NCBI RefSeq assembly: GCF_040807025.1
Contig: NC_090967.1
Span: 5,751,001 to 5,815,000 of the forward strand
From: Struthio camelus
Lineage: Eukaryota; Chordata; Aves; Struthioniformes; Struthionidae
Length of the DNA stretch: 64,000 bases
Direction: 5' to 3'
The notes under the pieces are model-generated. The model saw nothing but the letters and a program-made list of their open reading frames with translations, was not told the DNA's origin and ran no database searches. A program made the position numbers and the translations under genes. Below, one piece after another: positions 4,342 to 38,214 of this stretch (position 1 is its first letter; every line of letters starts with the position of its first letter).

Positions 4342-11823
<7,482 letters not shown>

Positions 11824-11883
11824 TGCGCTCCCAGCCCTCGCGCTCCCCGGGAAACTTTCCATTCCCCCTCCCGCCCTCGCCTG

Positions 11884-14086
11884 GGAAATTAAACAACTGT
11901 CTGGCTCGGCCGGCCCGACACATGGAGCAGATCCCCCGGGGCCGGCTGCGCCGCGCCAGCCCCGCTCGGCGGGGGGAACGCCGCCGCCGCGGCCCCGCTG
12001 CACGCGGCCGGCCCCGGGGCACGTGGCGCCGCGCTGGCCCCGAGGCGGCAGCTGCTCCCTGCAAGGGCACGGACACCTGCAAAAGGGACGCGCTGCAAAA
12101 GGGACGCGGCAGAGCCGGGATGCACCGAGCCACGGGGCCACCGAGGGAGGCGGCGGAGCGGCCGCGCCGCGGGGACGAGGGGACCCGGCCGGCGCCGGTG
12201 GGTCTCGCCGCGAGCCCCTTTGCAGCATCGCCCTTGCCTCCGGGCGCGCTCGGCCGTGGGAGCCGGGCGCCTGGCCCGGCCCGACCCCGTGTCCCCTCTG
12301 ATGCAACTGGATACCTGCTGTTCCCTCCAGCAGCAAAAATAACCTCCAGCTGGCGGGGGCCCAGGCGGGCGCGCGGGGCCGGCTTCACCGTGCTGCCGTC
12401 GGAGCCCGGCCGGGAGGGACGGGGAAGGGGGGGAAACTCGGGGCGCGGGAAAACGCCCCGAAAGCAGGCGGTGACGTGAAAACCAGCAGGACAGTGGTCC
12501 TGCAGTAGAGACATTCCCTGTCCTCTGCCAAGTGACCCTGGACGGCCACAAATCCGTGCAGCACGTGACAGCACGGGGAGAGCAGGCAGGGTGCAACGGG
12601 GACATAAGAGCACAGGACAATGGGGCTTTGGGGACGTCGGGGCAGAAAGCAAAGCCGTCCCTGCTGGGCTGCAGGGCAGCCGAGACCCCCAGGACACCCA
12701 GAGCGGGGCAGGACCGGTGCAGGACAGCCTGTCCCCAGCCGCAGGACACGTGTGGCAGCAGGCGGGTGACACAGGAGCCGGGGGCACAGCGCGGCCAGGC
12801 TGGCTCCAGGTCCCTGAGCCGTGCCACCCCTGCAAGCCGGGCTGGGACAGTCACGGGGGGGAGGAACGAGCAGCCTAAAAATAACCCCGCGGCAGGCGGC
12901 GAGGTTGGCAGGTCCCAGCGGACCGGGGTGAGAGAGCAGCCCCTGGGGAGGCCCCAGGCTCCGGTCCCCTGCGGTCCCCTCCCGGGGGTGCAGAGACGCC
13001 CCGGTGCCAGCAAGGCCTCCCCAAAACGCACGCCGGGAAGGGGCTGCAGGGAGCAGGAGCGCCCCCGGGGCAGCCGCGGGGGCAGGCGGAGGCCCGAGCC
13101 CGTCCCGCAATGGGGCACGAGCGGACAGGCCACGCTCAGGTCCCCCGAGGAGCTGCAGGCGATACGCCCCCCCGCCAGCCCCACGGCTCGATGGCGGCAC
13201 CAGGGTGGCACCCGAAGCTCCAAATCCCCCTCGGTTCGGACCTCTGCCTGGGCCGCCGCAGGGCTTGGGGGCAATGAGGCCCCCCCAAAGAGCCCCCCGG
13301 GCAGCATGGGCCGGCTCTCGGCCCTTTCCCAGCTTACCCAAGAGCGAAGCAGCCGGCCCAAGCCCAGCTGGGGCTGCCCCCTCCGTCCTGCCCCCCGCTC
13401 CCGCCCCGGCCCCTCTCCCGCGTCCGAAAAATCTGCCTGAGATTGCTTTGCCTCTCACGGCAGCGACGAGGCCGGGGCGCATGGCACCAGGCCGGGCGGC
13501 GCGTCCAGGTCCTGCCCATGCCCACGGCCCTGCTGCGGTCCCCCCGCCTCCCACCAGCCGTGCGGGACCACACGCCCCTTCCCCAGCGCCGCAGCCCCTC
13601 GCAGCAACGCCAGCGCCCCACGGAGCGCCCGGGGCCCCCGGCCACCCCAGCACTGGCACAGCCCCTGCCCGGCCCGGGGGGCTGCCGGGGGACCAGGCTC
13701 GGCCCTGGGGACACCGGCAGCTGCTCGTTGCGGTCTGGGCCTCGGGGCACCGCTCCGTCCGCGGAGGGGGGTGCCGGGGAGGGGCACTGCACACACCACA
13801 CTGCACACGTCGCACTGCACGCCCCAGCCCAGCCCAATGCTTGCACCCCGTTGCGTGCACCCCACCGTGCACCCCGCCGCACAGCCCCTGCCATCCTGGT
13901 GCACCCCCCCCCACTGCACTGCCCCCCACTCCCCCGGACAACGCTTCTGCCGTGCCCCTGCACCCCCCAGCCCACTGCACCCCGCACTGCACCCTCCCCA
14001 TTGCACAGCCCGCTGCACCCCCCCCCCACGCCCCCCTCCCCAAAAGCAGCCCGCCGCGCCGGGGGCAGCTCGGGGCCGGCGGCTCC
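11884..14086. other. PDE4C intron between the proposed leader exon and first coding exon
   Basis: GC-rich sequence with a perfect MEF2-type site CTAAAAATAA (12875-12884) and a loose CACTGCACCC-type repeat at about 13787-14030. Long minus-strand ORFs here have repetitive Arg/Pro/Gly-rich products and no recognisable domain, so I list no gene. Confidence 0.4.
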
Positions 14087-14092
14087 TCTTAC

Positions 14093-14195
14093 CGGCGGTG
14101 CAGGGAGGAGGGTCGGGAGCGGGGCGGGCGCGGCACCCCCTCCCCTTCCCGGTGCCGGTTCCGCTCGGTGGCGGAGCGGATGCGCTGCGGGTGCC

Positions 14196-14226
<31 letters not shown>

Positions 14227-14335
14227 CCGCTGTCCGCCCGCCGGTGCTGAACCCGGTGCCGCCCGCCCTGCCCCGGGGTCCCGCTGCCCCGGTGTCCCGG
14301 GGTCCCCGTGCCGGCTTCGCTCCGCTCCGCTGCCA
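14093..14335 (-). other. PDE4C: Candidate non-coding first exon of PDE4C
   Basis: On the minus strand a TATTTAA box (14361-14367) is followed about 270 nt later by a donor (CACCGCCG then GTAAGA, donor bases 14087-14092). No ATG opens a meaningful frame between them, so the exon is probably leader sequence spliced to the acceptor at 11881. A run of 26 G (C on the transcript) lies inside it. The 5' end is estimated at about 30 nt downstream of the TATA box. Confidence 0.4.
14196..14221. repeat. 26-nt poly-G run
   Basis: An uninterrupted run of 26 G on the plus strand (C on the minus strand) within the proposed PDE4C leader exon. It could form a G-quadruplex or i-motif and is a likely site of sequencing length error. 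Confidence 0.9.
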
Positions 14336-14360
14336 GAGGCGGCCGCCCGGCCGCGGCTGC

Positions 14361-14367
14361 TTAAATA
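14361..14367 (-). promoter_or_regulatory. TATA-like box (TATTTAA) upstream of PDE4C
   Basis: The box sits inside a near-palindromic GC context (GGCGG and CCGCC arms) and is one of very few AT-rich heptamers in this CpG-dense stretch. It is oriented for minus-strand transcription towards PDE4C. Confidence 0.45.
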
Positions 14368-14937
14368 CCGCCGGGCGGCCGGGGAGGGAGGAGGTGGGGG
14401 GGGGACACCGGGAGAGCCCCCGCCGCTCCCCCCGCCCGAGCCCGGCGCCGCCCCGCTTCGACGGCGCGGGACGGGGACACGGCACCCCGCTGCCCCCCCG
14501 CCCCGTCCCCGTCCCCGGACCCGAGCACCGGCCCCGGCTTCGCCCCGCCGCCGCCCGGGCCCTTCCCCCCCCCCCAACCCCGGCCGGGGCCGCCTGGCCT
14601 CAATCACCCCGGCCGCGGGGTCGGTCAATTCGCATCCTCAGTAAAGGGAAAAATAAAATAATTCATCAAGCCAACACCGACATCAGTCCCCCCCCGCCGG
14701 AGCCCCGCTCCGCCGCTTTCCAGCGCGTCTAGGAAACTATTCGGGTTTGGGTCCCCCCCCCCCCCCGCCCCGAGGGCGACAACAAGATGCGATTTCTCAG
14801 CAGCGGGAGCCGCCCGTCTCGGCTGCGCGCCGGTCGGGGGGCGCCGGGGGCGGCCGCCGCCGGCCAAACCCGCCCCGTCTTGGGCCCCTGCGCCAGGCAG
14901 CGCGTCGGCTGCGCGGCCCCGGTGGGACGGGCCTTAC

Positions 14938-15956
14938 CGGGGCGGGTCGGACTCGTCGCCGCTGCTGGGGCCGCTCTCCTCGATGGTGAACACCACCCTG
15001 GCGCCGTCGGGCTCGGCGCCGCGGGCCGCCTCGGCCGGCCGGTAACCCGACGGCGGCGGCGGCGGCGGCAGCAGCAGCGGGCTCCCGGAGAAGCGCCGGC
15101 GGACGGCGCTCACCGCCGGCCCCGACGGGGCGGCCTGCGGGCAGACGGCGCGGCCTGAGCCCGGTACCGGCGGAGCTCTCCAGGGTGCTGTGCCGGGCGG
15201 CTCTGCACCGCTCCGCTCGGCCGCCCGCACCGGGCACCGGAGCCGCTCCCCGGTAACGGGGCGAGGCGCTTTGGACGGGGCCGGCCTCACTCCAACCACC
15301 CCCCTCCCCGCTCCGGGAGGGGCCGCCACTTCAGCACCCCCATCGGAACCCCCCCCCCCCCCCGCCAACCCATCCGGGACCCCCGCTGCAAACGGGGAGC
15401 GACTCCCCCCGCCCGTTCTCACCGGGTGCCGGTAGCGCACGGGAGCCCCCTGCCGGGCTCGGTGCCTCGCTGCAGCCCCGGGGGCACCGGGCGAGCAGCG
15501 CCGCGGTCGGGGGGGAGGCGCGACCCCCCCCCCGGCCTCCGGCCCGGGGCTGCCGAGTAGCCGCCGCCCCCAGCCGGGGCAGCGGGGAGGGCGCGGGGGG
15601 CCCGACGGCGGCTCGGCCCCGCATGCACCCCCCACCCCGGGCTCGGCCCCCCCCGGAGAGTCCCGGACCCCCGCCGAGCGCTGGCCTGGGCCGCCCCCCC
15701 CGGCCGGTGGAACCCCCCCCCCGGAGCCGTCGCGCACTTACGCAGAGGCTAATAATAATTAACCGCCCATTAGGGGGATAATTAACTCCTGCTGAGTGCC
15801 GTAATCCCGGTTATTGCTGCCCTCGGGCACGGCGCTGGGACACCCGCACCGGGGACACCGCGCCCCCCCCACCCCCCCCGGTACCCCCCCCCCGGTGCCC
15901 GGGGCCTCTCTCACCTCCGCGCTCAGGAAGGGCAGCGCCGTCCGGCTCCGTCGCAT
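14938..15956 (-). CDS. Candidate alternative N-terminal coding exons of PDE4C (or a small unknown gene)
   Basis: Exon 1 (15915-15956) reads MRRSRTALPFLSAE and ends in phase 0 at GAG before GTGAGA. Exon 2 (14938-15134) follows a CTGCCCGCAG acceptor, encodes 65 codons including VRRRFSGSP, a poly-Pro run and ARVVFTIEESGPSSGDESD, and ends CCG CCC CG before GTAAGG, phase 2. The PDE4C UCR1 exon (9166-9354) needs exactly phase 2 and would give Arg-Phe-Asp-Leu-Glu-Asn-Gly, matching the RRFDLENG junction recalled for human PDE4C. Joined to the shared exons it gives 2316 bases, or 771 aa. RRRFS is a possible PKA site. I do not recognise the N-terminus from any named isoform. A separate short gene cannot be excluded. 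Confidence 0.5.
15750..15808. promoter_or_regulatory. AT-rich homeodomain-motif cluster in GC-rich intron
   Basis: TAATAATAATTAA (about 15750-15762), CCATTAG, GATAATTAAC (about 15777-15786) and GTAATCCC (15801-15808) lie within 60 bp of otherwise almost pure GC sequence. TAATTA and TAATCC are homeodomain and bicoid-type cores. Function as an enhancer is inferred. Confidence 0.35.
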
Positions 15957-16830
15957 CGCGGTGCCCCCGGCCGCCGCCGCGCCTGCGGGACGCGGTGCTC
16001 AGCCCCGACGGCCCCGGGGGCTGCGACCCCCCCCCCGGGCCCGTGCCGGTGGGACCCCCCCGGCCCGCACCCTCGGGACGCCCCGTCTGGGCCGGGGCAG
16101 GTGGGTGGCCGCGACCACATCCACGCACGGGCTGTTTACACGGTTTTTTCTCTTGGCACTGATTTACGGGTGCCCGCTGCGCCCCCGGGGTTAGCCCCGA
16201 CTCCTCGGCCTTGCCCGGACCGCTGACAGCTGGGGCGAGCGAAGCCCCGCACCACCCCGCTGGGCACCCTCCTGGCTGCGCGGAGAGCACCTGGGCCTGA
16301 GGCCACGGGGATGGGCCTGGCCACCATCCGCCAGGGCTGGGCCGTGCTCAGACCTGCTGCACCGGCTCAGGGCATCCGCCAGGCCACGAATCCCTCGGCA
16401 CCTTGCAGGAGCCGCCGGAATGATGTCCCGGGGTTCCCCATTAGCCTGCAGCCCCGAAGCCCCCCAGGCTCAGCCAGGGCCCAGCCCAAGGCCCTCGTGT
16501 CCACTCAGGAAAGCTTTTCTGGGCTTTTCCCACCTGGAAGAAACCCAATTTCTCATGGTTGAACCCCTCGGTCCTCCCAGAACTGGGATGAGAAGCAGCA
16601 TCAGCCCAGGGCCACGCATGCCAGTGAGGGGGGCTCAGCCCCATCGCGAGGCGGATGCCCAGCTCGCCGCCCCCCAGCCTTCCCTCACCCTCACCCGCAG
16701 CCCCCGGGGGTAGCCCCTTACCGGCCACCGGGTCCGCGGCGCCCTGCAGCCGGAGTGCAGCGGAGCAGAAGGAAGGCTGCGTGCGTGCCTGGCCGCTCGC
16801 TCCCTCCCTTCCCACCCCCTGCCGGGGGAG
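15957..16830. other. Spacer between the alternative PDE4C exon and the satellite
   Basis: GC-rich unique sequence that would include the promoter of the 15956 exon. No TATA box or clear exon is seen. Confidence 0.35.
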
Positions 16831-16834
16831 GCCG

Positions 16835-17410
16835 TGCGGCACTGCACGGCGTGGCACGGCACCGCACGGCATTGCACAGTGCTGCACACCATTGCACGGT
16901 GTGACGCAGCACCGCACAGCGTGGCACGGCACCGCACGGCCTTGCATGGTGTGGCACGGCACTGCACAGCATGGCACAGCACGGCACAGCACCGCACGGC
17001 CTTGCATGGTGTGGCATGGCACTGCACAGCACGGCACAGCACCGCACAGCGTGGCATGGCACTGCACAGCACAGCACAGTGTGGCACGGCACTGCACAGC
17101 ATGGCACAGCACCGCACAGCGTGGCACGGCACTGCACACCATTGCACAGTGTGTTATGGCACTCCACAGCGTGGCATGGCACTGCACAGCACAGCACAGT
17201 GTGGCACGGCACTGCACAGCATGGCACAGCACCGCACAGCGTGGCACGGCACTGCACACCATTGCACAGTGTGGCATGGCACTCCACAGCGTGGCATGGC
17301 ACTGCACAGCACAGCACAGTATGGCACAGCACTGCACAGCATGGCATGGCACTGCACAGCACAGCACAGCACTGCATGGCATGGCACAGCACTGCACGGC
17401 ACCAGGGCCA
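16835..17410. repeat. GGCACnGCAC satellite with 120-bp higher-order period
   Basis: Short GCAC-based units (GGCACGGCACTGCACAGCA and similar) fill about 575 bp. A 120-bp block is repeated in exact register: the segments starting at 17061, 17181 and 17301 are nearly identical. The repeat lies just beyond the 3' end of the mucin-like gene. Confidence 0.9.
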
Positions 17411-17744
17411 GGCCACCAGCTCAGCCCTGCTCCCGCGCTGACCCGTGGCCCAGCCCAGCGCCAAGGGACCCCAAAGGGCTCAGGACCCCCTCGCTGGCCC
17501 CTGGAGCGCCCGCAGCTGCTGGGGCCGGTGGCTTTGCCCCCGCGCAGCGGGGAGCAGGGGACACAGAGGGTCCACAGAGGGGCAGTGCCCCGGCACGGAG
17601 GGCTCCAGGAGGGCTGGCTCCCTGCACCCCTGCCCACTGCCAGGACCCCCAGCCTTGGGGAGGGCCCTCGAGAGCAGCACCCCCAGGCGATTTGGCGAGC
17701 GGGGAGTGAAACGGGCTGCAGGCGGCTTGGAAAACAGGGAGAAT

Positions 17745-20700
17745 CAGCCAAACTGGCAGCTGCTTTATTCACCAGCGCGGGCATCCCCGCGGCATGGCAA
17801 GGCCGGGCTGCCGGCGGCCGCCGGCTCACCGCGGCGGGCAGCGAGCGAAGGGGGACCCTTCCGTCACCTTCCCCTGGCAAGGAGAGAGAGAGAGAGGCAG
17901 TGAGCGCCCTGCGGCCAGGCCCCCGCCGCCCCCAGGGCAGCAGGCAGCCCCGCGCAGGCACCCGCCGCCGGCGACGCACCAGGGGCACCTCGTCCAGCCG
18001 CCGGAACCGCGGGCGCCCGTGCCGGCACAGCCGCACCAGCAGCACCGCCGCTCCCGCCGCCAGCACGGCCGCGAAGAGGCAGATGACGACAACGAGGCCG
18101 GGGTTCGTCTTGGCAGGGGGCAGCGCTGCGGGGGCGAGACGGCGGGCCGGGCGTCACGCCTGCGGCCCGCTCCCGGCCACAGACAGGGCACCCCGCGCCC
18201 CATGTCGCTCCCGCCACGCGTGCCCCAGCCCGGGGCCGTCTCCTACCTGCGGTGGGCACGGTCCCCGCTGCCGGCTGCGACGCCGGCGCTGCAAGGGGAA
18301 GAGCGAGCCATTAACCACGGCCCCTCAAGCGCCGCGTGGGAAAGCGGAGCCGCCCCGGCCCTGCTGCCGGCCGGGTGCCCCGTCCCACCCGGCTCCGGCC
18401 GGGCGCCGCAGCCTGCTCCCACCCGCGCCGCTCCCAGCCCCGCTCTCACCCGAGCTGCTGGCTGGGGTGGCTGGGGTGTCCCCGGGGCTGGGGCTCACGG
18501 CTGGCGGGGCCAGCCCAGGCGAAGGTGGGGTGGGTGCTGCGGCCGAGCCGGATGGAGGCTCCGTGGCCGTGCTGGACGGAGACACCACCGTGGCCGTGCT
18601 GGACGGAGACGATGCTGCAGCCGAGCCGGACGGAGATGATGCTGCAGCTGAGCTGGACAGAGACACCACCGTGGCCGTGCTGGACGGAGATGCCATGGCT
18701 GTGCTGGATGGAGGTGCCACTGTGGTCAAGCTGGACGGAGGCTCCGTGGCCGTGCTGGATGGAGACACCATGGCCGAGCTGGACGGAGACACCATGGCCG
18801 AGCTGGATGGAGACACCATGGCCGAGCTGGACGGAGATGCCGCCGCGGCCGAGCTGGACGGAGATGCCATGGCTGTGCTGGATGGAGACACCATGGCCGA
18901 GCTGGACGGAGATGCCGCCGCGGCCGAGCTGGACGGAGATGCCATGGCTGTGCTGGATGGAGACACCATGGCCGAGCTGGACGGAGATGCCGCCGCGGCC
19001 GAGCTGGACGGAGATGCCATGGCTGTGCTGGACGGAGACACCATGGCTGAGCTGGATGGAGATGCCGCCGCGGCCGAGCTGGACGGAGATGCCATGGCTG
19101 TGCTGGACGGAGACACCATGGCCAAGCTGGACAGAGGCTCCGTGGCCGAGCTGGATGGAGACACCATGGCCGTGCTAGACGGAGATGCCACAACGGCCGT
19201 GCTGGACGGAGATGCTGTAGTTGTTGCAGAGCCAGCTGAGCTGGATGGAGATCCCACCATGGCTGAGCCTGCTGGAGACATGGTAGTTCATCTTGGAGAA
19301 ACGGGCAGAGAGGACCCCCATGGCGTTCCTCCAAGGGAAGCGCCGAGTGCTGCCCCTGGGGAGGAGCGGGACGGGCCAGGGGCCGCTGGCTGCCGAGCGG
19401 TGCCCAGCCTCGCGGGCAGAGCGCTGCCGGCATGTCCGGGCCGATCCTGCCCCGCCAGCAGCGCTGGGTGCCGAGCTGGCTGCCAGCCCAAGGCAGACGT
19501 GGAGCTGCTGGGGCGTGTGCAGCGACGGCCCGCGGGGGCGACGGAGGGGCTGGAGCAGCTCCCACGCGAGGGGAGGCCCAGAGAGCCGGGACGGTTCAGC
19601 CTGGAGGAGAGACGGCTCCGGGGGGCTCCGATCCGCGTGTGTAAATACCGGACGGGAGCGGGGGCAGAGGTGGGCGGCCAGCACGGACGCGGCCCCCGCC
19701 GTCGGGACGGCCTTGCTGCCGGCCCGGCTCGGCGCGAGCAGCACGGTGGCCGGGCGCTGGGACACCCGCCGGCCCCGCAAGGAGGCCTCCGGGGGTGACG
19801 GGCAGGGCCGGGCAGGTGCCACCAGCGCCGATAACGCCCTTATCCACCCAAATCCTGTTTGCACAGGAGGAGCCGGCACAGCACTGGGACACGCTGGAGC
19901 CAACGGCCCGGGGACGTGGCCAGCACCCGCAGCCAGCACCCAGCCCGGCCGACCCCGAGGATGGCACCTGGGGTCCCAACAGCCCCCCAGAGCCCAAGGA
20001 CGGGCCGTTCCCATTCATCCACTGTCGCCCGCCGCGGCGGGGAGGGTTTCCTTGTCCCTGGCAGCGTAGACTTTGTCCTCCCTAGCCGCAGCCGGTGCCT
20101 CCATCGCGGTGCGCGGCGCTGGGCCAGCGCGGGGAATTCGCCGAGCTCCCGGCTCCCGCTGCTCCGCTGCGGGAAACTGAGGCGCGGGGCGGCCGCGGGA
20201 GCTGGGGGAAGTGGGACCGGGACTCTCCCGTGCCGCGACAGGTCTCGGCGTCCTCGAGGAGCGGCTCGGCCTGGACGGAGGCGCCGGGCAGCGGGCACCA
20301 GGGGCGGCGAGCGGCGGGCCGGCGGCGAGCCCAGGGCAGAGCCGGGCGCGCCGATGCCGGTTCCCGCGCCGGCACCGGCAACCCCGGGGCTTGGAAGGAC
20401 GCCGAGAGCAGGGAGCCTGCTGGGGGCCCGGACTGGAAGCGGAGAGCGTGCGAGGACCGGCACCGGGAGAGCCCGGGGTGGCGGGGGGGAGCAAGACGCA
20501 GAGGGCAGGGCCTCCGCGGCCCGGTGATGCCGAGGCGGTGCCGGGGCGCCCACGCCGCCGCGTGCCCCAGCCAGCCCAGCCGGTTTGGCAGCACCGGGGC
20601 TCTATCCAGGCTGCAGGAAGGGCAGAGCGTGCCATGGTTCCCCCCCACCTCTCCGTACCCAGGATATCCCAGGGGACATCGGGCGCCTCCCGGTACCCGT

Positions 20701-21111
20701 GGGCACCCAGCACAGCCCTGTCCTGGGGGGTCACCCGTTGTAACCCCTGGAGCTGGGAGCACGTGGAGCTCCCCGGGGCCCGGCAGGGCAGGGCGAGTGC
20801 GTGGACCCCCACCGGTGCTCAACCAGCCAGGGCAGCACACGGACCCCCTCGGCGCCCATGACTCCCCCCCCCAGGATGCACAGCCCCCCCCCCCATTGAT
20901 GCCCAGTGTCCCAGGCGCTGTGCCCCAGGGTGCACAGACCGCCCCCTCGACGCCCGGCATCCTCACGCCCCCACGGTCCTTTTAGGATGCCCAACCTGCC
21001 CCCGACCCGGCCCCCCCCCCCCGGCCCCCCCCCCCCCGCCGGTGCCCGCTCACCTGCGCCGAGCACGGCCCAAGCGCAGCACAGCAGCAGGCCGAGGGCG
21101 CCCCGGGCCAT
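17745..21111 (-). CDS. Mucin-like single-pass membrane protein (five exons)
   Basis: Exons in transcript order are 21054-21111, 18450-19268, 18247-18288, 17980-18125 and 17826-17873 (stop 17826-17828). Splice phases are 1, 1, 1, 0. The sum is 1113 bases, 370 aa. Exon 1 is a signal peptide (MARGALGLLLCCAWAVLG). Exon 2 encodes 272 residues dominated by SPSSSAMV and SPSSSAAAA repeats, a likely O-glycosylated stalk. Exon 4 has LVVVICLFAAVLAAGAAVLLV (residues 317-337), a transmembrane helix, then basic RLCRHGRPRFRRLDEVPL. Exon 5 ends GKVTEGSPFARCPPR. A poly(A) signal AATAAA (plus tttatt, 17764-17769) follows. The weakest junctions are the exon 2 acceptor and the exon 4 donor (GTGCGT). Position and architecture recall human CIST1, but I cannot confirm orthology, so no symbol is given. 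Confidence 0.78.
17764..17769 (-). terminator. Poly(A) signal AATAAA of the mucin-like gene
   Basis: Plus-strand TTTATT (AATAAA on the transcript) lies 56 nt after the stop codon, supporting this as the real 3' end of the gene. Confidence 0.75.
18730..19170 (-). repeat. 75-bp higher-order coding repeat in the mucin exon
   Basis: Units of 24, 24 and 27 bp (8, 8 and 9 codons: SPSSSAMV, SPSSTAMA, SPSSSAAAA) form a 75-bp block repeated about four times in register (near 18839, 18914, 18989 and 19064). Simpler 24-27 bp copies flank it. All unit lengths are multiples of three, so the frame is preserved. Confidence 0.9.
19269..21053. other. Intron 1 of the mucin-like gene
   Basis: About 1.8 kb of GC-rich unique sequence. 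A further small extracellular exon could be hidden here, but I found none with matching phase and conserved content. Confidence 0.45.
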
Positions 21112-21176
21112 CGCTGCCCGCCCGCCCGCCCCGCCGCCCCGGGGCCGCTCTGCCGCCCGCCCCGCCGCCGCCGCCG

Positions 21177-21184
21177 CCTTTATG
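21177..21184 (-). promoter_or_regulatory. TATA-like CATAAAGG of the mucin-like gene
   Basis: CATAAAGG on the minus strand lies about 66 bp upstream of the start codon in CpG-rich sequence, a sensible distance for a short leader. Confidence 0.5.
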
Positions 21185-22370
21185 CGCCCCGACGGGGCGG
21201 GCGCGTCCCCGCCGCGGCGCCCCCTGCCGGCGCCGCCGTGCGCCTGGGCTCCGGGGGGGGGGCGGCTTCGGGGTTGGAGCAGCTCCCCCCCCCCAGCCGT
21301 GCCTCAGTTTCCCCCGGGGGAAACTCAGCTGCCCCCGGGGACGGTTTCGCCCCCCCCGGGGCGGATCGAAGGCGAGCGCCGAGCAGCGTCGCATCCGGAC
21401 GGCGGGTCCCCGGCGAGCCCCGGCGACGGGGAGCGGTTGTTTACGCGAGGCTGGGAGGACGCTTGCTCCGGCGGGCCGCGGCCAGCTGGCTCGGTCGGGT
21501 CCCCGGGAGAGGCCTCGCTCGCCGCCGCCGGCCCTCGAGGGGGCCCCCGCGCCAGGCTCCCCGCCAGCGCGGGGCGGGAGCAGGGCCGGGCCGGCAGCGG
21601 GGCCGTTGCTCCGTGTTTGCGGAGCGCTTGGAACAGCAGGAGCTGGAACAGGGTAGATAAGAGCAGCGGTGGCCGGGCCCGGCGCCAAATCCCGGCGCTC
21701 GCCCTCCTTCCCCGCGGGCTGCAGCGGGGCCGGCGACGTCCCCGTGCCCCCCGCCCCATCCGGCATCGCTGCGCCGCAGAAGCTGTCCCGCTCCGCCTGT
21801 CCCCGAACGCACCCCGACGTCCCCCCCGCCCTCCCCGAACCCGCCCTGGCCCCAGCCGCGGCCTCCAGCCTCCACCTCGCGCCTACGGGAGGCCGCTCGG
21901 CAGACGGCACCGGGCGCAGCGTCGATGGGGAAACCGAGGCACGCTCGCCGTCCTCCCCGGCCCCACGCGGCAAAGGCAGCCTGGGCGGAAGCGGCGGCCG
22001 GGATGCAGCCCGCGGGGAGACGGCCCGTCGGGGCACGCGCCCCGTTTCGGCCGGCCGGGGAACGGGTCGCGGCGCTCAGCCCCAGCCGCGTGCCGGGGCA
22101 GCGGCCCCGAAGTGGGGCAGCCCCACGGCGCTCCTCCCTGCCCCGCGCGGGGCCGTGCCGGGGAGCTGCGCCCGGGGGTTTGACCCAGGGACGCGGCGGA
22201 GCGGGGGGGCGCTGCCGGCGTCGCGCCGGTGCGAATTTGGGGCGGCCGGGGGCGGCTGGAGCCGGGCCAGCCCCGCAGGTGGGTGGACGCGGAGGAAGAG
22301 GAGCAGCGGGGAAGCGAAGGCTGGCGGGAGCGAAGGTCCCCCCCTGCCGAGGGGGGCTGCCTTCCACGTG
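21185..22370. other. Upstream CpG-rich region of the mucin-like gene
   Basis: CpG-island-like sequence between the mucin promoter and the C-rich minisatellite. Long ORFs on both strands are compositional. No gene is recognised. Confidence 0.4.
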
Positions 22371-22374
22371 GGGC

Positions 22375-23130
22375 TCGCGGCGGGACCCCCCCCCACAACA
22401 CCCACGGGGACCCCTGGAGACCCTCGCCCCAGCCTTGGGGGAGCCCTCACCACCCTGAACCCCCCCAGGACACCCAACGGGACCCCAAAAGCACCCCTCA
22501 ACACCCACAGGGATCCCCTGTGACCCCACAGCCCCCCCACCAGGCTTGAGACCCCCCCCACGACCCTAGAGCCCCCCATGACCCCCAGTGGGACCCCAAA
22601 ATCCCCCCCACAACACCCACAGGGACCCTTGGCGACCCTGGAGCCCCTCCCTACAACACCCACAGGACCCCAAGGACCCCCCCCCCAACCATAGAGCTCC
22701 CTGTGACCCCCAGCATGACCTCACCCCCCCAAGACACCCACAGGACCCCAGGGCCTCCCCTCCAGCCCAAGAGACCCCCTCAAGACCCTAGAGCCCCCCG
22801 TGACCCCCAGCAGGGCCCCAACCCCCCCCCAACAACACCCATGGGGACCTCTGGCAACCCTGGAGCCCCCCCCACAACACCCACAGGACCCCCCACAACT
22901 GGAGAGCCCCCTGCGACCCCCCCACAACCCCCCACAACCCTAGAGCCCCCATCACCCCCAGCAGGACCCCAAAACCCACCCCCAACACCCACGGGGACAC
23001 CTGGAGACCCCCCATGACACCCACAGGACCCCCCCGACGACCCCAGGGCCCCCACTCCAGCCCCACGAGCTCCCCCCCCCCACGACCCCCAAATCCCCCC
23101 CACACCCCCACCGCCCGCGGGGACCCCCCA
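22375..23130. repeat. C-rich minisatellite
   Basis: Diverged tandem copies of segments such as ACAACACCCACAGGGACCC and CCTAGAGCCCCCCGTGACCC fill about 750 bp between the mucin-like gene and the 3' end of JUND. The plus strand is almost free of G runs, giving strong strand asymmetry. Confidence 0.85.
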
Positions 23131-23373
23131 GCCGCCCCCTCCCACACCCCCACCGTCCCACAAGCCCCTTCGCCCCAAGATGGCAGCCGGCCGCCGCGCC
23201 GCTTCCTGCCCGGCCTGTGGCGCCGGCGGCGCAGGCCCGGCCTTCCCCCCCCCCCCACCCCCAAAACTCCCGCCGCGCCCCCCCCCAACCTTCCCGGTCC
23301 CCCCCCCCGCCCCGGTTCCCCCCCCCCCCGGTGGCGAAGCAGACAGCGAGAGGCGGCAGCTCCCGGCGCGGGC

Positions 23374-24056
23374 TTTACTGGGGCCTCACTGGAATGTGGC
23401 GGGCGCGGGGCCGCCGCCGCCGCCATCCCGGGCGCGGCCGCCGAGGCCCGTCGGGGGTCGGGGGGGGGGGGTCCCGGCGCCCCCCTCAGTCCGTTGTGGG
23501 GGGGGGAAGGAGGGATCGGGGGTCATGGAGCCCCCTCAGTCCATCAGGTGGGTCCCGGCGCCCCCCTCAGTTCATCGTGGGGGTCGGAGGGGTCCCAGCG
23601 CCCCCTCAGTCCGTCGTGGGGGGGGGGGAAGTTGTGGGGGTCCCGGTGCCCCCTCAGTCCGACGGGGGTCGGACCCCTTTGCTCCAGTCCGTGCCCGGGA
23701 AGGGCAGCGCGGTGGAAAGGCTGGGGGGGGGGGTCCTCTCCCTCACCCCCCCCCGCCTGGTACCTCCAAGTCCATGGGGGTTTTCCAGCCCGGAGAGCCC
23801 AGCCCCGACGGCGGGGAGGGCGCTAAGTCCACAGCGGGCCGAGGAAGAAGAGGAGGAGGAGGAGGAAGAAAGGGGGGGGTGTTCCACCACGCTGCTCTCA
23901 GTCCACACCAGCAGCGCCGGCGCGGCAAAAGGTGGAGGGGGGGGGGGAAATGCCCCCGTCCGTCCCCCCCCCCCCCCCCAATCAGGTCCATCCGAGGGGG
24001 CGTCCGAGCACCCCTCGCTGCAAAGTCCGCGGCGGAGGCGCAGCGGGGCGGCACCC
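23374..24056 (-). other. JUND: JUND 3' untranslated region with candidate AGTAAA signal
   Basis: Minus-strand sequence after the JUND stop carries a GA/CT-rich tract (about 23843-23880) and a tandem repeat at 23470-23690. It then reaches AGTAAA (plus tttact, 23374-23379), a variant poly(A) signal. I found no canonical AATAAA on this strand in the interval. The 3' end is inferred. Confidence 0.45.
23470..23690. repeat. Tandem repeat in the JUND 3' UTR
   Basis: About five copies of a block containing GGTCCCGGCGCCCCC and CCCCTCAGTCC recur at roughly 32-50 bp spacing, separated by G runs. Confidence 0.8.
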
Positions 24057-25802
<1,746 letters not shown>

Positions 25803-26205
25803 TCATGGCTCTCACGCCAGGCCGAGCGGGGGCGGGCACCGGAAAAAGGCTGCGAAGAACAACCGAAAACCGGCCCGGGGGGCGGGCCGCGCTCCCCCCC
25901 CCACCCACCCCCGACGGCAGCGGGGGGGTCCCGGCCGGGGCTCGTCTTTACCGGCGCCTCGGCCCCCTTTCGGGCGCTACCTGCGGCCGCGGCCCTGCCC
26001 TCCCCCGGGGGAACCGCGGCCACGGCGTGCGTGCCGGGCCCCCCCCGCCGCCGCCGTCCCGCGTGGGCCCGGCTCCACCCCCCCCCCCCGACGGGGCGGA
26101 CGGCGGCGAAGGAGTTAAAGCGGAGCCGGGGCCGCGCGTCACGCTCGGGTCGGGCCGGGCCGCGCCGCGCCGCGGGCGGCTGAGGGGGCGGATCGGCGTC
26201 AGCGG

Positions 26206-26213
26206 TGACGTCA
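26206..26213. promoter_or_regulatory. Perfect CRE (TGACGTCA)
   Basis: This is a palindromic CRE about 1.15 kb upstream of the JUND start codon, in CpG-island sequence. Confidence 0.5.
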
Positions 26214-26569
26214 GAGCGGCTCCGCGTGGAGCGGCGCGCGGCGCAGCGCGCGTGGGGGGGTGGGAGGAAGGGGGGGGCCGGCCGGGGGAGGAGGGCGCGC
26301 GCGTGTCCGCGGGGAGGGCCGCCCACGCGGGCGCGCGGCCCCGAGGCACGCGCGGGCGCCTCCCACGCGTGTCCGCCCTCGAGTCCGTGCCGGAGCTGGG
26401 CGCGTTACGGGGCGCGGCCGCGTTAGCGGGTTCGGACTTTCCGTCCTGGCGAAACGCGGGCGGCGAGCGAGCGCGGGGAGGGGAGGGAAGGGCGCGGGCC
26501 GGCTCCCTGCGGGCTCGGGGGGACGCTCGTGGGGCAGCCCGGAGCCCGGCGCGGCGCGTGCCCCCTGCG

Positions 26570-27860
26570 CACCCCTGTGCACGCCGCGCCGCGCCGAGAG
26601 CACCCGGCGTGCACCCCCTGCGCACCCCTGTGCACACCTCGCCGAGAGCACCCGTTGTGCACCCCCCGCGCGCCCCTCGTGCACGCCGCGCCTCGCTGAG
26701 AGCACCCGGCGTGCACCCCCCGCGCACCCCTCGTGCACGCCGCGCCTCGCCGAGAGCACCCGGCGTGCACCCCCTGCGCACCCCTGTGCACGCCGCGCCT
26801 CGCTGAGAGCACCCGCCGTGCACCCCCTGCGCACCCCTCGTGCACGCCGCGCCTCGCCGAGAGCACCCGGCGTGCACCCCCTGCGCACCCCTGTGCACGC
26901 CGCGCCTCGCCGAGAGCACCCGCCGTGCACCCCCCACGCGCCCCTCGTGCACGCCGCGCCTCACCGAGAGCACCCGGCGTGCACCCCCTGCGCACCCCTG
27001 TGCACGCCGCGCCGCGCCGAGAGCACCCGGCGTGCACCCCCCGCGCGCCCCTCGTGCGCGCCTCGCCGAGAGCACCCGGCGTGCACCCCCCGCGCGCCCC
27101 TCGTGCGCGCCTCGCCGAGAGCACCCGGCGTGCACCCCCCGCGCACCCCTGTGCACGCCGCGCCGAGAGCACCCGCCGTGCACCCCCCGCGCGCCCCTCG
27201 TGCGCGCCTCGCCGAGAGCACCCGGCGTGCACCCCCCGCGCACCCCTGTGCACGCCGCGCCTCGCCGAGAGCACCCACCGTGCACCCCCGCGCGCCCCTC
27301 GTGCGCGCCTCGCCGAGAGCACCCGGCGTGCACCCCCCGCGCACCTCGTGCGCGCCTCGCCGAGAGCACCCGGCGTGCACCCCCTGCGCACCCCTCGTGC
27401 GCGCCTCGCCGAGAGCACCCACCGTGCACCCCCCGCGCGCCCCTGTGCACGCCGCGCCTCGCCGAGAGCACCCGTTGTGCACCCCCTGCGCGCCCCTTGT
27501 GCGCGCCTCGCCGAGAGCACCCGGCGTGCACCCCCCGCGCACCTCGTGCACGCCTCGCCGAGAGCACCCGGCGTGCACCCCCCGCGCGCCCCTGCGCATG
27601 CAGTGCCTCGCCGAGAGCACCCGGCATGCTCCCTGCACGCCCCTTGTGCACACTGCGCCTTGCCGAGAGCACCCGGCGTGCACCCCTGCGCACCCACTGC
27701 GCGTGCCATGCCTTGCCGAGCACCCGGCGTGCACCCACTGTGCACCCCTCGTGCATGCTGCGCCTTGCCAAGAGCACCCCGCGTGCACCCCCTGCACCTC
27801 ACCGAGAGCACCCTGCGTGCACCCCCTGTGCACCCTGCGCCTCGCCGAGAGCACCCAGCG
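26570..27860. repeat. Large GC-rich minisatellite, about 48-54 bp unit
   Basis: About 25 copies of a unit built from CGAGAGCACCCGGCGTGCAC, CCCCCGCGC and CCCTCGTGCGCGCCTCGC. Length variants arise from GTGCACGCCGCG versus GTGCGCG segments. The copies at the right end (27600-27860) are more diverged. Long open frames on both strands (over 550 codons) are by-products of the repeat and are not annotated as genes. Confidence 0.92.
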
Positions 27861-29940
27861 CGCGCCCCCGCGGGCACCCCGCCGCCCCCTCCCCGCCGCA
27901 GCCAGCCAAAATGAGAAACAGCTTTGGTTTTAGGTGCTTTAATCAGTTACAGAGAGGAACGAGCGGCCCCCGGGCCTCGCTGCAAGGGGGGCTGGCCGGC
28001 GGCCAGCGACGCGAGCCGCGCTCCGGCCCGGCCCCGCGCAACCCCGCCGGGGCACCCGCGCCGCCCGCGGCACCGGCTTGCAGCACAGCCCTTCGTTTTT
28101 CCTAACGAGCGTTTAATTAGGCCCTGCCGCCTGCCCTGGGAAGCGGCGGCCGGTGACCCGGAGGACGCCGAGCCCGCGTCCCGGCTGCTGTTCCCGCTCG
28201 CGCTCGGCCCGCCGCCTGCCAGCGGGGCTGCGTTTACCCCGGTGCCCGGCCGCGCCGCCGCTCTTCCTCCCAGCCCCACGGCGGAGATCCTCGCTCTTCC
28301 TCCTCGGCAGCGGGTGCAGCCGCGGCAGCTCCAGCGGGTGCAAACGGCCCCGGAGCGGCTCGGTGCCCCTTGGCCAGGGGAGCGGGAGCAGCTCCCCGAG
28401 GGCAGCGGGCTGCGCGCAGAGCCGGGCTCCCCCGCCACCGCAGAGAAAGCCGCCGCGCCAGCCCGAAACCCCGGCCGCGCCGCCGCTCGACGACCAGGCT
28501 GCACGTGGAGGAAGAGCAGGCGCTCCGGCCAGCACCTGCCTCCCGGCCCCGCTACCCCGAAAAAGGGAACGGCCAGCAGAGCGTTGGCTGCCCCGCGCGC
28601 GCGCAAGGGAAGCGGCGTCTTAGTCATCGCGGCAGGGAGGGCAGCGAGCCGGGGCGCGAGGGCTCGCCAGCCGCCGAGGGGGCCGCGCTGCCCCCGGGCA
28701 CCAGGGGCTTGCAACAATCAGAAAAAGACAAAAAAAAAAAAAAACACATTAAAAAGGAAAATGAGGAGGAGGATTTGACGTGTATTTTTAGTTGCTTAGC
28801 GCAGCCTTGAAATATTTCAGCGGCCACTCCCTCCGCGTTGCAGGCGGCTGGCGTGTAACTATTCCTGTGCTGTCTCCCAGACGCAGGCACACAAGCATGA
28901 GTCACGGCCGGCCGCGCCGCGCCGCCAGCGGCTCGCCGGCCCCGTGCGAACACGAGCGCGGGGCCGCTTCCCGCCGTGCAGCCCCCCCGACCCACCCCGG
29001 TTTTCCGGCCGGGGGCCGCTCGCCCTGCCAGGCCGCGCGTGTCCACGCCGGCATCGCGTCTTAGACCTTTTCCCTCCTCTCCGGCTGTCGCTTTTATCTC
29101 GCTCCTCCTTGCGTTCGTTTCAGACGCTGCGATGGGGCCGGATTGGAGCGCCCGGGTTTGTTTGCCGCACGCCGGCCTCGGCCACCCTTTTTGGGACAGG
29201 AAGGCAGTTTGGGGAGCGTGCAGGAAGGACCGAAACCGCAGACTAGCTCTGCGTCGACAGAAGGGCTGGATGCCCCTCGCGCGCGGTTATCTCCGACACA
29301 GAACCTGCCGCCGCGTCGCGTGCGACGGCTCGGCCTGAAAACACTCCCAAAGAGGTGGAAAGAACATGGCCCAGGATGCAAAGAAGGGGGAGGCAGTAAG
29401 GGAACACCGATAAGGAGCACGGTTGTAATTAAACAAAAGCAGAACTTAATGAGCTAAAACGCCCGACCCCAAGCTTCGCGAGGAGATAAGGCGCGCTTAG
29501 AGGACTCTACCCTGAGCCGAAGCCAAAGGTCCCATTGTTCCAACGAACATTATCTGGCCAGAACAGACCGTAAATCCAGACACTACTGCAGTTGTTTCCT
29601 TTTTCATTAGGGCAGCTGTAACACATGGGGTTTCTGTGGCTGGAGGCAGGGACGAGAAAGGGAGGGAGCAGGTTGGGAAGGGAAAGTCTGACACAGGGCT
29701 CAGCCTGTGCTTTGTTAAAATGCCACATTGGTGTTTACTTTGAGACGGAGTTTCCAGGAGGGAGGACACATGTGCCCTGTTCCCACTGCCTGGAGTTCGC
29801 TTCTTGGCAGAAGAGCCTCGCTTGGGATGGGGCTTTCGCTGCCGACGCTCCGAGGAACAGAGGCCACGCTGACGAAAGGTAGCCACGCAGAACACGCAGC
29901 AGCTGGTTTTAGAGACCAGAGGTTTAGCCAGTCTGCTTGG
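27861..29940. other. JUND-LSM4 intergenic region, with GC-rich to AT-rich transition
   Basis: GC-rich and CpG-dense to about 29.1 kb, then the composition falls. It contains an AP-1 site TGAGTCA (28898-28904), a poly-A stretch at about 28730-28744, and ATTAAA on the minus strand at 27937-27942. No coding gene is recognised. Confidence 0.4.
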
Positions 29941-30047
29941 CTGTTTATTCTTTATGCTAGTGATAGAAGAAGGGTTTTTACAAGGGTTTGGTAAGGCCCA
30001 GCTTTGTTGCAGACACAGGAAGGAAGTCATTTTCTACAGGTTGGCGA

Positions 30048-31472
30048 TTTATTCCTACTCACCACTCAGCAAAAATTCTGTAATCATTCAAAAAAATAAG
30101 TAGATAGAAAAGCGTGCACTTCACTTACTTTCTCTTCAAAACAGCGATGATGACAGAGTGGACCTCAATATGGGAGTCCGTTGTAAAAAAACCCAACACC
30201 CCCCCCCCCCCCAAGTTGCTCACAGTATCTGCTTTTACCTTCAAATTAAACATAGTCATTCAGGAAGTGGAGGCAAGATCTACAGCCTCGTTCTTCCCCC
30301 GGTAACCCTACACAGGGTTTCAGTTCAGATCAGCCAGGATATTCTGCAGGTACGTTTTGCTCATGGGACACTGCACCTTTGAGATGGAAGACTTTAAGCA
30401 ACCTGACCTGGAAATTCACAGGAACTTTCCTGCTGACCTACAAGAGGGGCACGTTCACACTCTGGTCTCTGGCCCCAAGGAAAGATATCTGGACAGTTAG
30501 TAGAAAATGAAATGACAGGTACTTATAGTGAAGTCAATCACTACACACCATGAGAAATAAGCTTTAAAACAAACAAACAAACAGTCTCAACTCAGGAATC
30601 TGACTGCAAGACTTCATGTCACAGGCACAAGGGAGAGAATATTCAAAGCAAAAAAAATTTAAACTTAACGGTTCCAACTGCTTTTCAGGGAAAAAAAAGG
30701 AAAGAAAAAGCAATATAGAGTAAGGGGCATATTAGCCTTCCACAGTAAAACATAAAAACCCCTTTCCTTTAAAGGAAACTTCTAAACTGAAGTCAAAGGA
30801 GAAATACTACTAATTGAGAATCCCTTATTTACAACAAAGCTCTATGGAAAACAGCCCTTACAAAGGCCAATGCAACATTCATCCCAAGCTCTCCCCTTAG
30901 CCTGTGCTCTAAGGCACAGGAGAGAGACAGAACGGACCAGCCAGAAAGGAGATGGCTTAAATTTTTGTTTTTTTTTAAAAATGAACCCTTAAGACCACTC
31001 ACGTAAAGATACAACATTCTCAAGCTCAGTGTTGTTAAATCAAAGTGTTTGCATCTGTTACAAATGCAACAAGTTTCCCAAGTTTCAAGTATAAAAACAA
31101 AACAAACCATCCTGAAAAAGTGTTTGCCTTAGTTCTTAAAACACTATACAGGATAACACTAAATTAAACCTGATGACCCTGAAGAACTAAACAGCATTTT
31201 CACTCTCAGGAAAAGACTGAAGTTAGGTCCTCTACCGTAAGTGATTTTTTTTTTTTGTTTTAAAGTATTTCCAATTACAAATTTTCTGAGTAAAAGAAGT
31301 GAACTTCACTTTACCAGATTAGACTGTGAGGGGCTTCCAAGCAACATGATTCTGGCATTGAATAGCTAACTAAAGACTAGAAATTTAACACTTTTGAACG
31401 CATGGTAATCCTGAGGTGATAAAACCAAGCAGCATCCCAGCACTGTCTCTGGCCAGGCTGCAACACAGCTTC
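30048..31472 (-). other. LSM4: Probable LSM4 3' untranslated or downstream region
   Basis: AT-rich sequence follows the LSM4 stop. The first canonical poly(A) signals on the minus strand are AATAAA at 30048-30053 and 29944-29949 (plus TTTATT), giving a long 3' UTR of about 1.4 kb. A shorter UTR using a non-canonical signal cannot be excluded. Confidence 0.35.
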
Positions 31473-34400
31473 TCATTGCTTTGCTGATTGTCTGCCCGGC
31501 TTTTTTTCCTGCTGGCCTCTTCCACTGCCTGGTATTCCTCGGCCACGGCCACCAAACACACCTATGGGGCAAAAAACCAAACCAAAGCAAAAAAACAAGA
31601 AAAACAGGTGTAAGAACATTGGTGTAACCCAGCAACACGTTTCCCAGCCACTCAGAGCTTTACACTCGTTTATACTTTGCCTGAATGCAAGCCTATCTTC
31701 CAGTTTTTGCAGAAGTAGAGACAGCGTTTTTAGACTTATCCCTTGCCAATTCCAGACCCTGTAGTTTATTCACTAGGTGCATAAAACGTATCTCCCCACA
31801 CCTGCAAGTTCAGCGATGTTTCCCTGCGTTAACATGTACTCTACTAGCCAGCTGTGCTAGCATCATAAATTAAAGTCTACTGATTTTGAAAAATGTAACA
31901 AGAAAGAGATACTGAGTTTTAAATCAAGCAGAAGCATCTGTCACCAGGGGGATTAGCAGATTGTACTGTATCCCATGAAAGCTGCAAAACCAAACCAAAT
32001 GCAATGAAGAGGGTGACTCAGTCACAAAACTCAGCTACAAAACAGAAAATATATCCCACTGTCACTGCCTCGCTTTTGGACAAAGTGATCCATCAGCACA
32101 CGGAGAAGGCACTGGATGCCATGATGTCAGAAGACAGCAATAACCAAGTGTTGCAGCAAGACTCTGCAGACATATGAGCACCCTCACACCTGGGAGCTAC
32201 TTCCACTTTTGTCTCAGGAGCTGCTAGCGCCCCTCTTCCCCCCCCAGCTGAACAAACTCACTCAAAATGGATAGAATGAGATTCTAGGCCATAACTGTGA
32301 AGTTTATTTCAGCACATTAGCGATGAAGGGACTGTGAAACCACCCCTCCAGTGATCTTTGCACAAAAATCGGAACTCAAAGGAGGCCTGCTCTGGGCAGG
32401 AGACTTTGCTCTAGAGCCCTCCGCTCTGGTTGCTTAGCCCAGATCACAGGCCTAAACTAGAAGGGGGCAGGGAGGGGAAGCAGCTTCTAACCCCGTAGTC
32501 CTTGGGATGCTCACAGAGCTCCAACTGCTCCCAGGGAAGCTGAGCAAAGACTACAGTACTTTTGCTTCTTGGCTTGCCAAATTCAGAAGACGAAGGATTA
32601 CCGGTGTCAGAAACAATAATCCTTTCAACTGTGTGCACAATTATAGCTTTACTTCTGCCTGCTGGCCTCTCAGCAAAATTGTCCTCCTTTTTTTTTTTTC
32701 CCCCCCTCTTCATGTCTCAGTAATGAGAGCCAAACCTTTTAGCTAATTAGCAAATGCCAAAGCTTCCCTTTAAAATATTCCATCAGCTAATTTAAGTTGC
32801 ACATCAAAACAGCAGGGAACTCCACCTCAAACAGAACTCGGCTCTGCTCTCCACAAGGTGGATATTTCCACAGCACAGGCAGCAGAAAAAACATTTCAGC
32901 TAAAATGTTTGTCCAAACAACCATATCCAAAAAGCTGCTATGCCAAGTGCTTTGGACACCGAAAAGGGAAGGAGGAAAAATAAAGGCGCCTTCAGATTTG
33001 TAAAGGTCACTTTTGCATGTTCAGAGCTTTCAGGAGATAGCATGCGCAGCAGAAGTCATAGGGGTTTTTCCTCTAGAAGTCCCGGGAACTTGTAGGCATG
33101 GCCCTTCACGTGTCCCAGAGTGGCGTGATGGCCTCAGGTAGATCACAGCTGTCCTACCAGAATTCCTTGCATAGTCAAAATGCAGACAGCTTGTTAAGGG
33201 CGCTGCGCAGAGAGACTTCGCCCTTCAGTGTCTCAGTCCCCAGGGCTCCTTTTAAAACCTACCTTTCCTAGGCCAAACCCGATTTTGCTGTAGCAATACA
33301 GCGCACTCAGGATTTGGAGCTCCTACTGCCAGCAAATCCTGTATTAAGAGCAACCGTCGGGCTGACAAAGGGGGCTAGTGAGGTGACCACAAAGTGAATC
33401 TCAAAGGAGGCGCGAGCAGGAAAGAAGAGAAATGGTTCGCAGGCTTCCCAGAGGATAGTTTTGGCAAAAAAGGACAAAAATACCCCCAAACCAAAGCGTT
33501 CCAAGATAACCTAACCATTTTCAGCAGGAGAGGGGAAGGAGGTTCTGTGACCTATTTCTTCACAAGCGGTAACCTCCCCTTATGTCAGAAGCATGAAATT
33601 TGCGTAGAGCAGAAAGGACATAAAGCCTCAGCTATATTAAAAAAAGTTGGGGGGGGAGGGGAAGACCAATCAGAAGATCAAAAGCACCATCATAATGGCA
33701 GACAAGATGATATTTTTCTACCACTGTGATGGTCAGAGCCCAGTGCATTTTCAAACAGAACAGCCACTTGTTTGCCTCCCAGACTCGCTCAGCTAGCAGA
33801 CACCAGAAATTTTGTAGGGACATGCGCAAGCCCATATTCTTCAACTAGCCAGAAGGGGTAGAAACAGTCAAGTTCAGAGACTCTCTTAAGCTCCTACCCA
33901 ACCCCAGAAACCAGAAAGGCACACCCCTTGCATGTCTCCTTTGTATTCTTTGGCTAAGGCCTAAGCAAGGCAGTGCACTCACTCAGCTAGATCTCGCACA
34001 GGAACAACTCCAGCTTCTCACCAACAGCACTAGGTTTAAAGGTGAGAAGCAACAACCATTTCTCGCACAGGATGTGAGCTTTAAAGGCAACAACCCCAGT
34101 CACTCCACTCAAGAGCGGAAAAGCAGACAGAATCGTTACCTCGTCCAGCACCTCCAACTCCACGGCCCTTCTGCTGTTTCTGCTGCTGCATCCCACCGCG
34201 ACCTCTGCCCTTCGACACCACCTCTTCCTTCACCATGTCAATTATTTCATCGGGGATACGCAGGTATTTAATTGTGCTGCCACGAATGTAACACTCTGGC
34301 ATTCTCCAGAACTTGTCACCATCCTATTAGGGAAGCAAGACGTTAGGCTAAGGACAGGACCACGTGCATTTATACTACTTTTTGGCATTTGAGTATTTCC

Positions 34401-37294: not shown

Positions 37295-37366
37295 CGTGCC
37301 GGAGCCGCCGCCGCCGCCGCGCGCGCCGGGCCCCGCCGCTCAAACCGCCCCCGGCGCCGCGCGGGG

Positions 37367-37435
37367 CCAATCAGCGCCCAGCGCCGCGCCGGCGGAACCA
37401 ATCAACGCCCGGGGCGCCGCGCCGGCGGAACCAAT
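37367..37435. promoter_or_regulatory. LSM4 promoter with three CCAAT boxes in a tandem repeat
   Basis: CCAATCA occurs at 37367, 37398 and 37431 within near-duplicate 31-33 bp units (GCGCCGCGCCGGCGGAA then CCAATCAACGCCCG). They lie 73-141 bp upstream of the LSM4 ATG, the typical position of NF-Y sites in housekeeping promoters. Confidence 0.6.
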
Positions 37436-38214
37436 CAACGCCCGGGCGCCGGCCTCGGCCGTAAAGCGACGCAGCGGCTCCTCGCTCCCGCCCCTTCAGG
37501 CACGGGGAGAAGGAGGGGAAGGTCCTTTCGTTTTCACGACAGTGCTGCAAAAGCAGCGGTGAGGCGAGGAAGAGGCGGCCGCGCTACCCACAGTGCCCCG
37601 CGGCGCCGCTGCCCCGATCCCTGCCGGCACCGGCACCGTCCCGATCCCGGTGTCCCTGGGCAGCCGCCAGGCAGGAGCTGTCCCCGTATTTGCCCCCGTG
37701 GGAGGAGCGCCTCCCTGCGTGACAAAAAAACACATAAAACAAAAAAGCTCTGCAGTAGTTTTAACCAACTTCCGCCCGTTGCCCATTTTTTATCGACCCA
37801 GGACTCGTTCCCGGTACCGAGCTCACGGCAAAGGGGCGCTCGGGGGAGCCCCGGCGGGACTGCGGGGCCCCGGCTGCGGTGCGGTTCCCGCATTCCCGGT
37901 GGTGTTTGCCGGGCTGAACCCTGTTTCCACGCGTTTTCAGCCCCGTCCCGGGGCCCTGACTGCCGGTTTTGCCGGTAAAGCTGCTCGAGGCCCTGGGGCA
38001 GCCAGCCGCCATGCACCGGCCCTCCGCCGCCGAGCGCCTTCCGCCGCGGCGGCGGAAGCGGCAGGGCGCGGGCCGCTCTGGGCAGCCGGGCGGAGCGCGC
38101 TCGTTGGCGGCGCGCGGGCCGCTCTGGGCGGCGGGGCGGAGCGCGCTCGGTGGCGGGGCGGGGCGGGGCCCGGCGCTCAGTGCGGCGCGGCCGCGGGCAG
38201 GGTGGGAGCGCGAC
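37436..38214. promoter_or_regulatory. LSM4-PGPEP1 divergent CpG-rich intergenic region
   Basis: LSM4 (-) and PGPEP1 (+) are divergently arranged with start codons 920 bp apart. Just upstream of PGPEP1 a roughly 47-bp block (GGGCCGCTCTGGGC, GGGCGGAGCGCGCTCG) is duplicated (about 38068-38112 and 38115-38162) and supplies several GC boxes. The PGPEP1 start is probably near 38170-38190. Confidence 0.5.

Follow-up and report, generated by a model that had tools for sequence, protein, structure and literature searches.

We identified, in a window of 64,000 nucleotides of ostrich DNA (Struthio camelus, contig NC_090967.1; the window is the whole stretch that was analyzed), what is very probably a single-copy protein gene of five exons and, judging by its position and direction of transcription, probably the bird ortholog of CIST1, a poorly studied gene of mammals. 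An earlier note on this DNA had proposed that the interval from PDE4C to JUND holds a gene for a mucin-like membrane protein. Composition, splice sites, reading frame, and synteny all back this proposal.

A five-exon gene model and its neighbours

The five exons of the model lie on the minus strand and join in phase (58 + 819 + 42 + 146 + 48 = 1113 bases) into 370 codons and a stop. The four introns (1785, 161, 121, and 106 bases) all have GT...AG borders. This reproduces exactly the in-phase model of the earlier note, and we recovered all the other elements that it had described, i.e., the signal peptide, the 272-residue Ser/Pro/Ala repeats, the helix, the basic tail, and the nearby AATAAA. 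The features are the following, in the direction of transcription:

21179..21184, minus strand: CATAAA, a weak TATA-like element by the usual consensus, starting 73 bases upstream of the ATG
21054..21111, minus strand: exon 1, with the start codon, the signal peptide MARGALGLLLCCAWAVLGA, and then the donor CAG/GTGAGC
19355, minus strand: first exon base of a stronger alternative acceptor, in the same phase, leading into a TGA
19288..19290, minus strand: a TGA that shares the reading frame of the repeats, a short way upstream of where exon 2 is proposed to start
18450..19268, minus strand: exon 2, with 28 repeat units forming the Ser/Pro/Ala-rich mucin-like domain
18247..18288, minus strand: exon 3, 42 bases, stalk APASQPAAGTVPTA
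17980..18125, minus strand: exon 4, transmembrane helix and basic juxtamembrane tail
17826..17873, minus strand: exon 5, GKVTEGSPFARCPPR and the stop
17764..17769, minus strand: AATAAA polyadenylation signal, starting 57 bases beyond the stop codon and with T-rich sequence after it

By hydropathy, the product has a predicted signal peptide and a single predicted membrane helix. Its residues divide into the signal peptide (19), an ectodomain (297), the helix (21), and a tail (33, with nine K/R and three D/E), the transmembrane segment being LVVVICLFAAVLAAGAAVLLV. The ectodomain contains 104 S, 27 T, 46 P, 66 A, and five D/E/K/R, with neither a cysteine nor an N-glycan sequon. Splice sites were scored with generic consensus tables: on the minus strand of positions 1–30000, the four donors fall in the 96.7–99.9 percentiles of 1397 GT and the four acceptors in the 95.2–99.8 percentiles of 1507 AG. 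A bacterial promoter scan of 21050–21300, a method not suited to a vertebrate, gave nothing.

We searched the genome (1.45 Gb in 262 contigs, the window being on contig 26) and, at E 0.001 or better, the helix-tail piece hit a single place, as did the DNA of exons 3–5. Among the other serine-rich places of the genome, where 150 of the 498 candidates were scored, we attributed two to composition (C38 and C39, with 47 and 53% identity and a stop in each). The whole 370-residue protein matched no Pfam family. We rejected a match of the 79-residue C-terminal query to DUF6069 (E 0.0024, 18.4 bits, below the cut-off of 27.2) and a chance match to a MutT/nudix protein in the PDB (E 0.34).

Pfam matches on the minus strand, which was covered as far as 38995, comprise a Ras-family protein at the low end of the window, which is RAB3A by position, the catalytic domain of PDE4 together with its upstream conserved regions, a Jun domain accompanied by bZIP, and, near 37 kb, an LSM domain. 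The flanking genes RAB3A, PDE4C, JUND, and LSM4 agree with these matches, and the start of JunD could be read directly. PDE4C, the model, and JUND follow in this order, all on the minus strand, so that transcription of the model runs from JUND towards PDE4C. PMC7379350 lists RAB3A, PDE4C, JUND, LSM4, and PGPEP1 on chicken 28. The GC content and gene order of the window fit a bird microchromosome like chicken 28. We would expect PGPEP1 next to LSM4; a plus-strand Pfam scan of 38000–63997 gave no domain at E 0.1, and PGPEP1 was not seen there.

In human, IQCN lies between PDE4C and JUND. Pfam named no IQCN in the scanned frames (minus 9000–28895; plus 9000–18997), and a strict pattern, which a divergent or short motif would escape, found no IQ motif in the six frames of 1–30000. 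IQCN may have been lost or displaced at the ostrich locus, or it may be too diverged.

Several arrays accompany these genes. A large GC-rich minisatellite upstream of JUND (26561–27792) has periods of about 53 and 107 bases and 24 shorter-unit copies, and another array (16839–17399, periods 50, 60, 70, and 120) lies just past the 3' end of the gene. A plus-strand match to HC2 (E 3.7e-5, 24.3 bits, cut-off 40) was taken as composition because it falls on the latter array; DUF993 (plus 9000–18997, E 0.24) was below the cut-off. On the high-coordinate side of the LSM-domain exon, an array of GGGGGTGAATGA type (38302–38835) is stop-free in all three minus frames and has no Pfam match.

Probable relation to CIST1

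We take CIST1 to stand for colon, intestine and stomach enriched 1, human LOC729966 to be this gene, and KIAA1683 to be what is now IQCN. PMC3276122 describes a cattle CIST1 of four exons, with amino-acid variants in exons 1 and 2 and a 3' UTR in exon 4. Its variants on BTA7 are at 4,911,890 (exon 1), 4,914,545 and 4,914,833 (exon 2), and 4,916,672 (3' UTR), the copies of KIAA1683 are at 4,856,941 and 4,896,528, GDF15 is at 4,704,137, and JUND and LSM4 belong to the same block as CIST1 (PMC3276122). Cattle CIST1 thus lies beyond GDF15 and KIAA1683, and as its coordinates rise from exon 1 to exon 4, its transcription leads away from these two genes. In the human order, JUND is on the GDF15/KIAA1683 side and PDE4C on the other, and it is from this order that we place JUND towards lower and PDE4C towards higher coordinates in cattle.

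The ostrich model and cattle CIST1 share the interval on the PDE4C side of JUND/KIAA1683 and the direction of transcription, which makes CIST1 orthology the best reading. The earlier suggestion of CIST1 as the ortholog is supported by cattle map position and direction, which is good evidence of a positional kind. The two genes are also alike in having a coding exon 1 with a coding exon 2 some kilobases downstream, and differ in exon number, with four in cattle and five in the ostrich model. This difference, together with the lack of a Pfam family and of a sequence link to any CIST1, would suit a real mucin-like membrane gene other than CIST1, specific to birds or sauropsids or too diverged to trace. 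Such a gene is possible but doubtful, since the interval, the relative direction, and the arrangement of the first two coding exons would then match those of cattle CIST1 without orthology.

Other sources bear on the map. PMC3276122 is partly inconsistent, as it counts PDE4C once among the 11 genes of the region and omits it elsewhere from the list of 11. Its Table 4 also places in the CIST1 block an 'Intron 12' variant at 4,920,670, which conflicts with a four-exon CIST1. CIST1 is in the same cattle block in PMC2859865 and in PMC11171348, the latter with spans that overlap IQCN widely and may be padded. LOC729966 is among the genes of a human block with PDE4C, JUND, and KIAA1683 in PMC5897035. 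The literature searched, outside which lie most subscription journals, contained no bird report of the gene and no paper combining PDE4C, JUND, chicken, and mucin. By term search, two papers that deal with genes missing from birds (PMC12954441 and PMC8449477) nowhere mention IQCN, KIAA1683, JUND, PDE4C, or mucin in their main text.

The repeat domain and the start of exon 2

The repeat-bearing exon comprises 272 whole codons with abundant S, P, and A, in units of 8–9 residues of the SPSS[ST]AMV type, with one unit of 13. We located the 28 units by pattern and anchored the spacings on that pattern: all 27 are multiples of three (24 or 27 bases, once 39), values that are not independent because repeat copies arise by duplication. 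The strongest four self-shifts of the array (75, 24, 99, and 123) are also all multiples of three. For comparison, among five arrays hand-picked from the 72 array rows of the window, 3 of the 20 strongest self-shifts are divisible by three (38/39/77/115, 119/40/79/80, 120/70/50/100, 107/11/53/49, and 38/118/12/80). Within the first six codons of the units, there are 18, 4, and 21 differences at codon positions 1, 2, and 3. Those at position 3 are mostly G/A (17 of 21), in general CG to CA, and CpG decay may be a partial cause of their excess. The 816 in-frame bases of exon 2 contain no stop and no frame-shifting length change. One antisense frame of the exon is also open, and the six GC-rich arrays that we tested, this one included, are all stop-free in at least one frame. 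Hence, openness of the frame does not by itself count as evidence.

The start of exon 2 is uncertain and is the main doubt of the model. An acceptor 87 bases upstream of 19268, at 19355 and in the same phase, scores 5.88 (99.3 percentile), compared with 2.85 (96.7 percentile) for 19268 and −1.29 (80.8 percentile) for its NAG neighbour at 19271. Splicing at 19355 would add 22 codons before a TGA, with a predicted product of 41 residues. The repeats, moreover, start upstream of the proposed exon: an in-frame unit SPAGSAMV at 19278, with 19 of 24 bases like the consensus, straddles the acceptor, and just upstream of it stands SPR-stop-TTM, with its TGA at 19290–19288. A gene that was recently disabled, or that is alternatively spliced, with exon 2 beginning at 19355, would account for the stronger acceptor, the straddling unit, and the TGA. 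However, exon 2 has kept its frame over all its in-frame bases, the acceptor at 19268 outscores that of exon 4 (2.85 against 2.00), and the model shows no damage at its remaining sites and frames, which makes this explanation unlikely. We favour the use of 19268 or 19271, giving the whole protein, over a 41-residue stub from this allele, because the frame is intact over all repeats and the sites elsewhere are good. The exon structure of the earlier note thus holds as an in-phase model, with the start of exon 2 less certain than it was drawn. It is very unlikely, in our opinion, that the competing acceptors form a switch, in which 19355 would give the stub and 19268/19271 the membrane mucin, and which would set the amount of brush at the surface.

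To assess how unusual the parts of the model are, we used hydropathy, signal-peptide, and codon-GC thresholds chosen from the model itself, after seeing it; the shuffle and codon-GC controls thus show rarity and should not be read as unbiased P-values. A 19-residue Kyte-Doolittle mean of at least 2.9 is found in one stretch in the six frames of 8001–28000, the helix of the model, and one signal-peptide-like ATG exon with a good donor is found in the same region, its exon 1. Among 200 dinucleotide shuffles of this region, none had a helix-like stretch and one had a signal-peptide-like exon. AATAAA occurs three times on the two strands, compared with 0.11 per shuffle, the other two copies being at 14652 (plus) and 8052 (minus).

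We then counted the stop-free 144-base windows (both strands, 1–30000) that equal or exceed exon 4 in third-position GC while their second-position GC is no higher than that of exon 4. There are 295 of them among 40,329, and they group into nine clusters, none of which is on the plus strand. JUND and the Ras-family gene have two clusters each, four more lie inside the PDE4C span, and the ninth is exon 4, which passes its own threshold by construction. In the PDE4C span, the cluster at 9356 has a PDE4-like reading, and those at 6777–6723, 6521–6249, and 4872–4665 were assigned by position only. It is very unlikely that there is no gene, i.e., that a chance chain of splice-like sites crosses GC-rich DNA with an expanded minisatellite. 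The many GC-rich arrays in the window, of which the six tested are all open in some frame, might suggest this, but the signal peptide and the helix, the repeat period and the codon-position pattern, and the AATAAA all stand in order on one strand.

Mucin character and proposed role of the protein

The ectodomain has Ser/Thr/Pro-rich tandem repeats and 59.6% of S+T+P, and 207 of 271 windows of 100 residues reach thresholds of at least 40% of S+T and at least 5% of P. Serine is in excess of threonine (104 to 27), and the protein does not gain the mucinome-score point for threonine. PMC9209528 presents this preference as one of several scored points, which is no definition alone. The serine bias sets the protein apart from classical mucins and speaks against very dense glycosylation. 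Pfam revealed no SEA, VWD, or EGF domain, nor a match of any kind, in the 370-residue protein, and we therefore expect neither SEA autoproteolysis nor an EGF-type role.

Among transmembrane mucins, Muc4, Muc13, and Muc16 were found in chicken, according to PMC1552070. Like them, the ostrich model has a Ser/Thr/Pro-rich domain and one membrane helix, and it differs in lacking SEA, VWD, and EGF domains. It is also far shorter. The protein would function in the manner of small mucin-like membrane proteins of the PODXL, EMCN, CD164, and PARM1 type, which are alike in being short, with one helix, an O-glycan-rich ectodomain (predicted here), and a basic juxtamembrane tail. A difference is that the ostrich ectodomain is free of cysteine and of N-glycan sequons. 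The method of the chicken inventory cannot effectively find mucins without VWD or SEA, as stated in PMC1552070. If confirmed, the ostrich gene would belong to this class.

The gene would be expressed, possibly in gut epithelium, and exon 1 would direct the chain into the secretory pathway. Dense O-glycans on Ser/Thr turn a mucin domain into a stiff brush (PMC9209528). The repeat domain of exon 2, about 270 residues, may be densely O-glycosylated in this way and form such a brush on the cell surface. Exons 3–4 would provide a stalk of modest length, the single helix that crosses the membrane, and a basic tail beneath it. In this tail, the basic juxtamembrane stretch RLCRHGRPRFRR might attach to acidic lipids of the membrane or to ERM-type linkers.

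If confirmed, the model shows that birds carry a gene for a mucin-like surface protein at the CIST1 locus. It leaves the general idea of mucins unchanged and is ordinary in kind, a useful and testable gene model with a short unique tail for ortholog searches (the helix with RLCRHGRPRFRRLDEVPLGKVTEGSPFARCPPR). DNA of this kind is known to hide avian genes (PMC4539667). Along the window, the composition changes abruptly: GC is above 70% in the first 28 kb (68.5% in one 2-kb bin), 37–50% in 30000–36000 and 40000–56000, and about 62% in 36001–40000.
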